Part shown: positions 3,901 through 35,847 of the stretch, piece after piece
Position numbering within the stretch: position 1 is the stretch's first letter
How the letters are laid out: every line of letters begins with the position of its first letter
Assembly: GCA_001464795.1 (NCBI GenBank)
Contig: LNEB01000003.1
Coordinates: 186,001-250,000 of the forward strand
DNA length: 64,000 bases
Direction of reading: 5' to 3'
Origin: Bdellovibrionales bacterium Ga0074139
GTDB taxonomy: Bacteria > Bdellovibrionota > Bdellovibrionia > Bdellovibrionales > Bdellovibrionaceae
Translations under genes and position numbers: made by a program
The notes under the pieces: generated by a model
What the model was told of the DNA's origin: nothing
The model's input: the letters and a program-made list of their open reading frames with translations, nothing else
Database searches by the model: none

Positions 3901-5162
3901 AAAAAATCTCCGCCCACATAAACGTGAGTTCCCGACACAGCTAAACTTCTAACGGCATGACTGGGATCGGGGACCCAGGCCAAGTCCACACTGTTATCAG
4001 CTAAAATTCGAGCTGCATTTTTTCTAGGTAAACCACCCACTTCAGTAAATTCTCCACCGATGTACCACCCCCCCACACCATCAGGGGTGACTGCAAACAA
4101 GGTCCCGTTCACTTTGGGATTTAAAACCTCAGGCAGACCCGTTGTTGTATCAACAAGAATTCCTTTGGATTCAAAATAAGGCACATTCACTCGTCGAAAA
4201 TTACCTGCAACTAATATATCACCTAAATCATTTTGCTCGATGTCGATAACCCCGTCAGGAATGGCAGCTGTCCACGAAGTTAAGGCTCCAGTTGCCACAT
4301 CAATGGCCGCCAAATTGTAACGAGGACTTCCATCCACTTCAGTGAATTCACCACCGATATAAAGTACGCCGCTGATGAGCTTCAAAGTTCTAACGGCTCC
4401 AGTCACCGTTACATCAAAAGTATTATCCAAAGTTCCATCTGCATTCAGCCTAGCTAAACCCGCTCTTGCAAATCCTTGCACTGCAGAAAAACTTCCCGCT
4501 ACAAACCATCCTCCTGAACCATCATGGACAACGGCTTCAACACTGCTATTAAAGGGTGTTAACTGATCAGGAATCAATTGCCCCTGAGGAAATAGTGAAA
4601 TAGCTGAAGTCGTATCAAGCGGTGATCCAAATGCAGCACTGTTCACTCGGAAATCTCCACCGATATAAAGATTTCCCGAAGACAGTGTTAATGCTTTTAC
4701 ACTTACATTCCAACTCTCGCTTATGACTCCAAAGTCAGGGTCAAATGTTAAATCAAGAGCTCCTGTGGGTAAAATCCTTGCCACTTTATTTCGTACAACT
4801 CCGCCCACAGAGGAAAAATTGCCGCCAATGTACCAACCATCAGCTCCATCAGAGATAACAGTATTAATATCACCTTGAACGTCCATGGTGGATCCATCAA
4901 ATGTGGCAATAGCTTTACCATCAGCACCAACAGGAACCCCAGAGCCCATGCATGGACCCATTTTCGAGAAATCACCGCCCACAAAAATCCGGTTCCATTC
5001 GGGAACTTCTAGGATGGCATTTACTGAATCATTAAAACATAAATTATTTAAACCATTAATTGTTTGCCCACCAAAGCTTTGTGAACTTCCACGGTTAAAT
5101 GGCCCCGAGAAAGGAGCCTGTGACCAAGCGAGCGATAAAATAAAAAAAATGAATGCAATCAT
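930..5162 (-). CDS. Secreted 28-repeat beta-propeller protein (DUF5122/delta-60 type)
   Basis: A 1410-residue protein with a signal peptide (hydrophobic residues 2-14, cleavage likely after 'AWSQA'). The rest is one long array of ~45-residue repeats with the pattern '[YF][VIA]GG.F..IGGQ.RN.[LI]AALD..TGLAT.WNP'. I count 28 copies of the '[YF].GG.F' core. This matches the DUF5122 / delta-60 beta-propeller repeat. No enzyme motif is visible; a structural or adhesive surface role is inferred. The ATG directly follows the TAA of the upstream fibre gene (TAA|ATG, no gap), so the two are almost certainly co-transcribed and translationally coupled. The repeats are uneven near the N-terminus and most regular in the middle, suggesting expansion by duplication. 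Confidence 0.85.
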   Translation of the reverse strand: MIAFIFFILSLAWSQAPFSGPFNRGSSQSFGGQTINGLNNLCFNDSVNAILEVPEWNRIFVGGDFSKMGPCMGSGVPVGADGKAIATFDGSTMDVQGDINTVISDGADGWYIGGNFSSVGGVVRNKVARILPTGALDLTFDPDFGVISESWNVSVKALTLSSGNLYIGGDFRVNSAAFGSPLDTTSAISLFPQGQLIPDQLTPFNSSVEAVVHDGSGGWFVAGSFSAVQGFARAGLARLNADGTLDNTFDVTVTGAVRTLKLISGVLYIGGEFTEVDGSPRYNLAAIDVATGALTSWTAAIPDGVIDIEQNDLGDILVAGNFRRVNVPYFESKGILVDTTTGLPEVLNPKVNGTLFAVTPDGVGGWYIGGEFTEVGGLPRKNAARILADNSVDLAWVPDPSHAVRSLAVSGTHVYVGGDFFTVGGQNRRYLAAVDSATGNATAWSPNPNDRVQVIKVDGTNVYVGGQFTSIGGQPRNYIAALDATSGLATTWNPSANNGSIVYSLFISGSIVYAGGVFSNIGAQPRNNIAALDATTGLATAWNANASDIVTSLFVSGATIYASGNFLNIGGQPRNRIAALNNTTGNATTWNPSADNIVNSIIVSGSLVYAAGGFDTIGGQIRTNLAALDITTGLATAWNPGLDDQVQAMALSGSFIYAGGYVDSAGGTERVGIAALDATTGLATAWNANSNDQVTTMTASGSLIYVGGFFSNIGGQSRNDLAALDSSTGLATAWNPNSNNGANVIVVSGTTIYVGGNFTNVGGLARNRIAALNNTTGAATTWNPNASSTVIDLVVSGTTVFVGGSFSTIGGQPRRYLAALSTTTGLASTWIPDPDQSVFTLALNGTSLYAGGTFSSMGAQTRVNLAAVNATTGAMQAWNPRPNSVVLTLTSLGANIYAGGEFTNINGTTRNRAAAMDATTGALTAWNTNASSRVRTLVASGTTIYAGGDFTTIGGQARTRIAALNNTNGNALTWSPGANSSVYALAVSGSTVFAGGFFSTIGGQTRNSLAALDSTSGLATAWNPSPDSYVSAISVSGTNVFVGGSFNTIGGQERSGAAAVDVISGLASSWNPETNSGVNTVAVSGSNIYVGGTFTFIGGQFRNRLAAIDTLTGLATTWNPGANASINKMIRYNNLLYIGGGFTSIGGQSRNYLAAIDAKTSAVQVWNPNPGYFVNDLTIDGSTLYIGGDFTTISGQVRNNIAAVDLTTGLLTSWDPNADFGVSTIVVEGPLVYAGGSFTQIGGESRNRIVALDKTTGLATAWNPSADSSVKSIVVSGATIYVGGNFSTIGGSFRLYLAALDSSSATALPWDPQLNGGVNSMELVGANIYVGGFFSRAGSLLRNSLASLEVTSGLVSAWNPNVNGVVVHLQVSGSRIYVGGSFSTMGVTTKTKSRFGALDINTAEVLLNSF

Positions 5163-33495: not shown

Positions 33496-34065
33496 CTACT
33501 CTCTGCTGCGTTTCATATTTTTGATTCGCTGACACAAAACGGAAAGTTTATATTCCAAAGTGCCAACCAAATCAGCACACTCCAATTGCTCCTTTGGAGT
33601 TCCTGGTTTCTTCCAGCATTGAGCCAAATCATCATTTAAAAAACGCCCTGAATAAAAATAGTCCTCTGTTTCAAGTTGTGCGGCTCTGAAATACTCGTGA
33701 GCGGCAAGAACAAGTTTTTGCTTGCAGCTCATCTCGTCCCATTTAGTCGGTACAAACAATATGACATTTTGCAATTGATCATAATGGGCGTCCTGGCAGT
33801 ACTCATGATTATAAACAGGCTCTTTATAACAAAGATGAGGAACTGGTATCACTTTTGTATTTGCAATTTTTTGATTAATTTCAGCGAGTGACAGCTTTGG
33901 ATCGCCTTGAGTTAGCAATTCAATGGCCGAGCGGCCGACCGTTGCAAATTCAGCAGAAAGAACGATGCCTCCACCGCTGTCATTGCCTCGAAAGGTTCTA
34001 GCATTGGCTAAACTTGCTAAAAATAATAATGATAAAATAAGCTGTACCCTTGCACTATTTTTCAT
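33496..34065 (-). CDS. Secreted HEYxR-motif protein B
   Basis: A 189-residue exported protein. Start at 34065 because GGAG lies 6 bases before it; the longer frame lacks a site. The signal peptide ends near 'LANA', then 'RTFRGNDSGGG', shared exactly with the upstream gene. A conserved core 'KLVLAAHEYFRAAQLE' (H123-E124...R127) resembles a metallopeptidase HExxH helix with Arg as last residue; three cysteines align with its paralogue. Family unknown. It overlaps that paralogue by 11 bases and is the last gene of a TIGR02147-HEYxR-HEYxR unit. Confidence 0.75.
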   Translation of the reverse strand: MKNSARVQLILSLLFLASLANARTFRGNDSGGGIVLSAEFATVGRSAIELLTQGDPKLSLAEINQKIANTKVIPVPHLCYKEPVYNHEYCQDAHYDQLQNVILFVPTKWDEMSCKQKLVLAAHEYFRAAQLETEDYFYSGRFLNDDLAQCWKKPGTPKEQLECADLVGTLEYKLSVLCQRIKNMKRSRE

Positions 34066-34552
34066 TTCTAGCTCCTTGTTCATTACAAATGGCAACAAGC
34101 TCCATTTTTGATCTTTCGCTTATTCCATGACCTAAAAAAAGACTGGAATTGATGTAGTTGGCGTCCTCTAAACCTGCCACTCTAAGGTACTCGTGAGAGG
34201 CTATAACAAACTTATCTACGCAAGACTTTTGGCTCCATCTTTTTCGATCAAAAATTATTTTTTGACCATCTGAATTAAAGTAAGCATCCAAGCAATTAAT
34301 CTCACCCGAATTGTGATCGGTAAAACAAATTTGATTCACATCAAAAACTTCAACCTGATTAAGAATGGATTCAACATTTGAAATTCCTAAGTTGGGTCGA
34401 TCAAACATAAGAATCTGTAAAGCATATCTTCCGATGGAAACAAACTCTGCAGATAAACTGGATCCCCCACCGCTGTCATTACCGCGAAATGTTCTTGCAT
34501 GACTCATTTGTGCCAAGATCATTATAGTTAAAAGTATCGATTTCATATTCAC
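34055..34552 (-). CDS. Secreted HEYxR-motif protein A
   Basis: A 165-residue exported protein: signal peptide to ~19 ('AQMSHA'), then 'RTFRGNDSGGG', Cys pair 'ICFTDH..GEINCLDA', 'KSCVDKFVIASHEYLRVAGLED' with H120-E121-Y-L-R124. The HE pair after a hydrophobic helix suggests a zinc-peptidase relative, but no third ligand is evident, so enzymatic activity is unproven. It starts 21 bases after the TIGR02147 gene and overlaps protein B. Confidence 0.75.
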   Translation of the reverse strand: MNMKSILLTIMILAQMSHARTFRGNDSGGGSSLSAEFVSIGRYALQILMFDRPNLGISNVESILNQVEVFDVNQICFTDHNSGEINCLDAYFNSDGQKIIFDRKRWSQKSCVDKFVIASHEYLRVAGLEDANYINSSLFLGHGISERSKMELVAICNEQGARNEK

Positions 34553-34573
34553 CTCTTTTTTTGTATTTAAAAT

Positions 34574-35341
34574 TTATTTTTTAAAATTTGTTAGTGGAAA
34601 CAGAGCCACACTGACTTGATAAACTTCGTCGGCCTCTTGAGCTTGATCAAACTCGAGTAGAAATTCCTTTCGGAACTGAGAGATTTTTTCTTTGGCCCTA
34701 TCTAAATCACTGATCTTCAACGCCAGTGTCACGCCTGTGTGATTTCGTTGTTCAAATTTAACTTCAGTGATGGAACTCAGTGCTTTTTCAAAAAATTGAA
34801 TTTGATTGAGCCTGGCCGCCTCACTGAACTTTTTATTGTTCGTGTGACTGGTGAATTGGTTAGAAAGATCATGCCATCCCTTTTCATCAATTCTAAGAAG
34901 TCCCACCTTTTGCAGTCGCTCGGTGGCTGAGTAAACCTGTCCTAAGCTAATGCCTAGGCGCTTAGCGACCCATGAAGCTCGTGGCTTAAAAGCCTTCACT
35001 CGCAAAAGATTCAGAATTGCATAATGATACCACTCTTTGATGATTTCAAAGCGGTCCTGATCAATAACCTGATAACTTCGAGCTTGAGTCTTAGAGCCCA
35101 CAGGCCCCAAGATGTCCAATTGGTATTTTTGAACTTGAGATTCACTGAGTTTTAATCTGGGAGCCACCTTTCGAATGAATAAGGGACTCACAGGATTTTT
35201 TCCACTCAGCAATGAAGAAAGTCCTGAAGCAGAAACCCCAAGGTATCTCGCAAAGGATCTTAAGGAATAATTAGGGTTGGCCTCGACTCTTTTTTTGAGT
35301 TCATCCCTTAAGTAGTATTTAAAATTTTGTTGATCTTGCAT
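34574..35341 (-). CDS. TIGR02147/DUF4423 family putative regulator
   Basis: A 255-residue cytoplasmic protein. The N-terminal ~70 residues form a helix-turn-helix ('YSLRSFARYLGVSASGLSSLLSGK'); a second winged-helix-like region follows ('ASWVAKRLGISLGQVYSATERLQKVGLL'), then the DUF4423 tail. TIGR02147 proteins are numerous in Bdellovibrio and Fibrobacter and are presumed transcription regulators. A 10-bp-arm inverted repeat 40 bases upstream could be its operator. It is first in a three-gene unit with the HEYxR proteins. Confidence 0.85.
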   Translation of the reverse strand: MQDQQNFKYYLRDELKKRVEANPNYSLRSFARYLGVSASGLSSLLSGKNPVSPLFIRKVAPRLKLSESQVQKYQLDILGPVGSKTQARSYQVIDQDRFEIIKEWYHYAILNLLRVKAFKPRASWVAKRLGISLGQVYSATERLQKVGLLRIDEKGWHDLSNQFTSHTNNKKFSEAARLNQIQFFEKALSSITEVKFEQRNHTGVTLALKISDLDRAKEKISQFRKEFLLEFDQAQEADEVYQVSVALFPLTNFKK

Positions 35342-35380
35342 GGACTCTTAGTTGCCTATCCCTAGATCAAAAGGCAATCA

Positions 35381-35405
35381 TTTTTTGAACAAAGTGTTCA
35401 AAAAA
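35381..35405. promoter_or_regulatory. Inverted repeat TTTTTTGAAC-N5-GTTCAAAAAA
   Basis: Ten-base perfect arms lie between the stop of the 140-residue secreted protein (35425) and the TIGR02147 start (35341). It could be a bidirectional terminator of the former or an operator of the latter. A second, looser repeat TTGCCT-N13-AGGCAA lies at 35352-35376. Confidence 0.55.
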
Positions 35406-35424
35406 TCTGAACAGTTTGCTACAA

Positions 35425-35847
35425 CTACCGGCTGACCCTACAGGAATAAATTGCGTTTTTACTTTCAGGAAAAGCGACGACTAAAGAGTCAGAATTCACA
35501 CTTCGCTTCAACACAAAAGAGGGAAATTTTTGCGATAGGGCTTGGGGACTTTCGAACTTAGTGGAAGGCGTGTACTTCATAAATCCGTCATAGCGACCTT
35601 TATGCACATTGGCCGAGTGAGCATAAACCCCAGGTGCTGAAAACTGAAGTGGCTGCTGAGCTTTGGAAACTACAACTGAAAAAAGAACACGCCCTTTATA
35701 AATTCCTTCACCGAATGTGAGGTGAAACCACTCAACACCGTGTCTCGCCTGACTGCCGCTCTCACGCTGGCAATAATAATCCGAGTTTTCAAAAGCAGAT
35801 GCTAGTGAACAAAGTGTTAACATCAGGGAAGCTATGATCATTTTCAT
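35425..35847 (-). CDS. Small secreted protein, unknown
   Basis: A 140-residue exported protein; start at ATG 35847 after GGAG, with signal peptide 'MKMIIASLMLTLCSLASA'. The mature part is beta-rich with two cysteines ('YYCQRES' and 'IYSCRVS') near the ends, probably forming a disulfide. No family recognised. It stands 40 bases downstream of the 402-residue secreted protein on the same strand and may be co-expressed. Confidence 0.65.
   Translation of the reverse strand: MKMIIASLMLTLCSLASAFENSDYYCQRESGSQARHGVEWFHLTFGEGIYKGRVLFSVVVSKAQQPLQFSAPGVYAHSANVHKGRYDGFMKYTPSTKFESPQALSQKFPSFVLKRSVNSDSLVVAFPESKNAIYSCRVSR

Follow-up and report, generated by a model that had tools for sequence, protein, structure and literature searches.

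A TIGR02147 regulator with a predicted private palindromic operator and exported zincin-like partners: an apparently undescribed module repeated across the Bdellovibrionota

The cassette lies on the minus strand of the window, the whole stretch of 64,000 nucleotides from Bdellovibrionales bacterium Ga0074139 that was analysed, and comprises three genes in the order R, A and B (Table 1). It is flanked on one side by a tryptophanyl-tRNA-synthetase-like gene and on the other by genes for small exported proteins. A preliminary description of this DNA had proposed a three-gene unit, a TIGR02147 regulator followed by two overlapping exported paralogues sharing RTFRGNDSGGG and HEYxRxAxLE, and all of these parts are present. 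A and B are 36% identical over 142 residues (E 3.6e-29) and their genes overlap by 11 bp (34055-34065). In each the sequence indicates a Sec-type signal peptide that ends just before RTFRGNDSGGG, and from residue 101 of the mature proteins run HEYLRVAGLE in A and HEYFRAAQLE in B. The gap of 21 bases given between R and A holds for a start of A at GTG 34552, but the ATG at 34546 is the more likely start and leaves 27 bases. Neither A nor B matched a Pfam or NCBIfam family, while the partner-family profile A4 matches A with an E of 8.6e-36. Upstream of the cassette, in the same direction, the window also encodes a small exported protein of about 140 residues (35425-35847), which ends 83 bp before R and has no family match. 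No known RNA elements were found in the window, nor any tRNA, and a tRNA-borne island was rejected accordingly. The PADLOC defence models gave marginal, mostly HTH-like matches and none for B, and a defence or phage system was rejected for want of a convincing family match.

Table 1. Coordinates of the genes and sequence features of the cassette in the window.
Feature	Position	Strand	Description
R, regulator	34574..35341	-	255 aa; TIGR02147 / DUF4423 family matches
A, exported zincin-like paralogue	34055..34546	-	163 aa; signal peptide 34496-34546; mature 34058-34495
B, exported zincin-like paralogue	33496..34065	-	189 aa; signal peptide 34000-34065; mature 33499-33999
HEYLR of A	34181..34195	-	His-Glu of the active-site-like helix; second zinc His replaced by Arg
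HEYFR of B	33685..33699	-	within predicted helix 92-106 of mature B
Operator, predicted	35380..35406	-	perfect palindrome ATTTTTTGAACA-CTT-TGTTCAAAAAAT; centred 52 bp before the start of R
-35-like element TTGCCT	35372..35377	-	TTG exactly 16 bases past the operator centre
Expected -10 position	35349..35354	-	17-bp spacer; local sequence a weak match

R exceeds the curated cut-offs of TIGR02147 (122.3 bits, cut-off 50), DUF4423 (127.9, cut-off 30) and HTH_3 (23.7, cut-off 23) and is thus a member of the TIGR02147 (Fsuc_second)/Pfam DUF4423 family, the models of which are silent on operator, partner and function. The predicted structure (pLDDT 90.6, pTM 0.67) is composed of an XRE-type HTH domain (residues ~7-78), a winged HTH domain (~95-158) and a C-terminal part made up of a helix and an alpha/beta region. 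The N-terminal domain matches HigA and other XRE-like folds, DdrO among them, and the middle domain matches ArsR/MarR-like folds including CzrA and CadC; no known sensor domain was recognised in the model by the fold search.

The inverted repeat reported upstream of the genes, with arms of 10 bp, is indeed there, although its arms are in fact 12 bp and it lies just beyond the interval first assigned to the unit. The palindrome is perfect around a 3-base centre and was reached by none of 300 shuffles. At 0 mismatches its core is a single exact site in the genome, and the sole other strongly palindromic near-match, on the same contig, precedes another TIGR02147 gene. A related half-site, TGTTCAA, lies upstream of two close homologues of R (52% and ~49% identity). 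The pattern extends to the family, with perfect palindromes with arms of at least 9 bp in 32 of 132 distinct upstream regions (1.6 expected) and CANNNTG with at least 5/6 palindromic flanks in 31 of the 132 (0.6 expected). Read in the orientation of the gene the centre is CACTTTG in 27 cases (2.2 expected) and CAAAGTG in 5, and the flanks of the operator differ between cassettes. The median distance from palindrome centre to start codon is 52 bp, and the computed spacing to the promoter is fixed: TTG stands at +16 from the centre at 21 of 47 sites, no other offset between 5 and 30 accounting for more than 4, and TA is enriched at 39-40 past the centre, as befits a sigma-70-type promoter whose spacer is 17 bp long. 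Given the palindrome before R, the family-wide pattern and the fixed -35 spacing, R very probably binds at 35380-35406, as judged from sequence and model. A terminator was considered in place of an operator and rejected. Read on R's strand, the palindrome opens with a run of T and closes with a run of A, so that the stem lacks a T-run after it whichever strand is read, and palindromes of the same class occupy a constant position ahead of the -35 in other cassettes.

Private operators combined with this promoter spacing suggest autoregulation, and activation is favoured over repression because the operator is placed just upstream of the -35 element. Most small autoregulators of the XRE or MarR/ArsR kinds repress and are then released, and in the same module R might instead be a repressor that holds the operon off at the operator until freed by a ligand or stress, in keeping with the likeness of its N-terminal domain to HigA-type and DdrO repressors, that of its middle domain to the repressors CzrA and CadC, and the private palindromic operator itself. 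However, an operator upstream of the -35 in a fixed 16-bp phase, with a core that is asymmetric with respect to the promoter (CACTTTG 27 against CAAAGTG 5), has a geometry better suited to touching RNA polymerase than to obstructing it, and repression would seem unlikely, though well worth bearing in mind. Two observations count against the reading favoured here: the centre of the operator is ~51 bases before the inferred transcription start, between the classical activator positions, where a repressor is possible, and the window's own -10 is weak. If the -35 and -10 elements are read correctly the message of R would start at about its ATG and be leaderless, as would those of many TIGR02147 genes. 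Shine-Dalgarno-like motifs precede 3 of 23 of these starts and 26 of 132 of all the regulators, so that their scarcity is not specific and a leaderless message is put forward as a suggestion from sequence.

Layouts in which a regulator gene is followed by an exported product are familiar from Rgg, ComR and PlcR. An exported product directly after the regulator and an activator-like operator upstream of the -35 resemble these, and weak rows for PrgX appear in the fold search with R. By analogy with RRNPP-type peptide signalling, the exported partner, whole or as a fragment, might re-enter the cytoplasm and bind R. This is very improbable, given that the partners are large folded proteins with a conserved His-Glu pair and that the model of R, with its XRE and winged HTH domains and short C-terminal part, shows no array of TPR repeats in its secondary structure.

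A confident model of mature B (pLDDT 92.6, pTM 0.86) predicts a zincin fold. All the top-ranked matches in the PDB are zincins, with middling Z scores of up to 7.3; scores below 8, the tool warns, can reflect a common arrangement. The first nine matches in Foldseek are minigluzincins (selecase and abylysin); the VIA rows likewise have selecase/abylysin on top (Z 7.3), then deuterolysin (6.7) and snapalysin (5.4), and further fold matches in the PDB include Acel_2062, SPRTN, YbeY, BepA and matrixins. The His-Glu pair of B is located in a helix placed in the model as the HExxH-bearing helix of zincins. The HExxH motif is, however, absent from both proteins: HEYLR in A and HEYFR in B keep the His-Glu and lack the second zinc-binding His. 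The earlier label of metallopeptidase-like suits the predicted fold, while the second His of the motif is Arg in A and B alike. The minigluzincins (selecase, abylysin and jannalysin) are the best fold matches of B, with ~76-91 residues aligned, and are in the same size class, but they have HExxH where A and B have HExxR together with a signal peptide and an N-terminal GGG, and there is no match in sequence. Metzincins are also fold matches of B (snapalysin, 4hx3, at Z 5.4 and MMPs at ~4.7). The sequence HEYLRVAGLED of A is in register with the metzincin HExxHxxGxxD, and sister partners with HExxH match metzincin chains weakly by sequence; relative to metzincins the second His is replaced by Arg, Gly or Ser, and the Asp at the third position is partly conserved, B having Thr. 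DUF4360 is matched by two A3 members (best E 1.8e-13), the match presumably falling in the C-terminal extensions of these proteins, and by neither A nor B. A sequence search of solved structures with A4 or A7 returned unrelated chance matches only.

Sister partners elsewhere have HExxY, HExxR/G or an intact HExxH. Among 85 partners with a detected motif, the fifth position is Tyr in 31, Arg in 13, Gly in 11 and His in 11, with other residues fewer. The His and Glu are invariant over the 19 sequences in A4, most of them only 13-23% identical to B, and this alignment also has cysteine pairs suited to oxidised compartments. The HEYL proteins show essentially no variation in the GG, His and Glu and commonly have a Tyr and a Ser downstream, and in the LHExxY proteins two Asp, the His and the Glu are invariant in 41 of 41, with the GG nearly so. 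Iterating profiles from the HEYL proteins at E 1e-4 linked these with a large GNGGD-LHExxY group, and comparison of the two subfamilies with hhalign gave homology at 96% and E 3e-9. The HExxH partners join the HEYL profile weakly (E 0.077). They do match known zincins by sequence, with E 0.002 for Acel_2062, and as Acel_2062 is also a fold match of B the partner family is best read, from sequence and model, as descended from zincins, most members having lost or changed the canonical zinc triad. With the second zinc-binding His replaced, by Arg in A and B, these proteins would be enzymes whose site is non-canonical or else protease-derived binding proteins. That the partners are pseudo-proteases, using the zincin fold without catalysis as a scaffold to bind peptides, prey molecules or an envelope protein, is a serious contender, if short of an even chance: a His at the fifth position in no more than 11 of 85 motifs speaks for it, and the invariance of His and Glu in the 19 sequences and in the 41 LHExxY members with their two Asp, more typical of a working site, speaks against it.

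The preliminary description had suggested that such a cassette of regulator and secreted proteins may be an undescribed system, a claim that was to fall if the genes did not co-occur elsewhere; they are strikingly linked in other genomes and the claim stands. With B alone as the query against 148 relatives, matches were found at five loci in four other genomes, all five adjoining a TIGR02147 gene, and a weak third match in its own genome led to a second cassette (contig C2), also with a TIGR02147 neighbour. The own genome has 15 TIGR02147 genes, nearly all of them neighbours of an exported protein whose N-terminus is Gly-rich, and most of these proteins have a His-Glu helix. DUF4423/TIGR02147 genes were present in all 60 Bdellovibrionota genomes checked, up to 40 per genome. 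Whole-genome counts, which rest on profile searches, gave 19 matches of A4 in five genomes (the own genome, G036, G004, G031 and G072), all within ~1.5 kb of a DUF4423 gene. In G036 there are cassettes near 680756-681708 and 2688277-2689253. Across 192 genomes of the phylum A4 has matches in 75, and 27 of 27 further loci taken from this search carry a DUF4423 regulator. The total is 46 of 46 A/B-family profile loci with the regulator within ~1.5 kb, a figure to be read with the proviso that the loci behind A4 were largely regulator-linked ones, so that remote homologues without a linked regulator may have escaped it. In 400 kb picked independently of the module there were one regulator and one His-Glu partner, adjacent to each other and 55 bp apart. 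At a density of 15 regulators in 2.9 Mb, only a few percent of random genes would fall this near to one. Chance adjacency is rejected by the 46 linked loci and this unselected sequence, and the linkage, as computed, is close to absolute.

When GTDB genomes were scanned with a regulator alignment, 80 loci were found, and almost all bear the label Bdellovibrionota or a related one. A profile-recognised partner lies within two genes of 53 of 82 regulators, and many of the regulators without one adjoin an exported HExxH protein. A same-strand gene follows within 250 bp for 118 of 139 distinct regulators, usually overlapping (57 by 4 bp); by a crude rule 109 of these 118 products are signal-peptide-like, and the His-Glu helix motif is found in 85. 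The secreted pair first described does exist at this locus, as a local detail, most cassettes having one partner. Distances among regulators and among partners are correlated (Mantel r 0.33, reached in 0 of 2000 permutations); regulator and partner have diverged together, as long vertical linkage alone would also produce. Each genome apparently carries several to dozens of units that, from their sequences, would be separately switchable. No description of a unit of regulator and exported zincin-like partner was found in the literature searched, where TIGR02147 is without mention, DUF4423 appears in passing and a function for either or for their neighbours was not found. The DUF4423 protein Bd3700 is reported to be more abundant during growth in prey (PMC12546842).

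The zincin-type proteases ImmA and PprI are cytosolic and have an intact HExxH. Each belongs to a pair in which an XRE-type regulator stands beside a zincin-type gene, as in ImmR/ImmA (PMC10233336) and DdrO/PprI (PMC8072749). The same juxtaposition is found here, with the DdrO fold among the matches of R, and the partner might by analogy cleave or bind R, its export setting the amount left inside. Here, though, the partner is exported and has HExxR: the signal peptides (109 of 118 signal-like) and cysteine pairs, and the want in A and B of the HExxH of those proteases, make such a pairing improbable.

We therefore return to the reading we prefer and hold to be reasonably probable, that of a self-contained switch-and-effector operon in which R controls itself through a private operator and the products are exported and zincin-like. 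As a one-component regulator, R would bind the palindrome just upstream of the -35 of its own promoter and would control, most likely activate, its operon on a cytoplasmic signal. The operon would yield one protein, or here two, exported by Sec to what we infer to be the periplasm or beyond. These are predicted to be small zincins with an N-terminal GGG/GGD motif and a helix, a small sheet and the His-Glu helix, and their substrate would probably be a peptide, a protein or wall material. A part in prey sensing, which the preliminary description offered as an example, is conjectural. The more ambitious proposal, that the partners are a large family of working enzymes without the canonical second zinc His, each under a self-activating regulator with a private operator, so that a predator genome holds many orthogonal on/off switches for exported effectors, is rather unlikely as a whole; the enzyme family would then be marked by its invariant Gly-Gly and His-Glu, one branch having also Tyr, two Asp, Ser and Arg.

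Taken singly the parts are familiar; what sets the module apart is their combination, its scale, the private operators and the altered motif. The module is apparently undescribed and much repeated in this phylum of predatory bacteria. Under the rule of a regulator, an exported zincin-like partner and a private operator, dozens of 'hypothetical' genes per genome that had looked unrelated become a single module, which can now be tested in the laboratory strain Bdellovibrio bacteriovorus HD100. Should the His-Glu site prove to work in the absence of the second zinc ligand, a classical protease fold would be seen with a new arrangement of its active site.

Several other arrangements were seen among the loci. 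In the own genome (C12, C14 and C15; loci L015, L017 and L023) there is a second clade of regulators without the RSFA-type N-terminus; regulators of this clade are often divergent from the exported partner and lack the CACTTTG operator. Locus L097 (13084-18183) holds a cluster of DUF4423-linked exported proteins with an intact HExxH, including two near-duplicates of 356 and 368 residues. At L101, L103, L105, L106 and L112 a DUF4423 regulator is followed by a gene for a lipoprotein-like product of ~220 residues (CASxHPG) and then by one for a short GNGG-LHEIIYEH protein. Finally, at L118 two divergent DUF4423 regulators share a 154-bp gap (4771-4926) with operator-like palindromes, each regulator being followed by its own exported partner.
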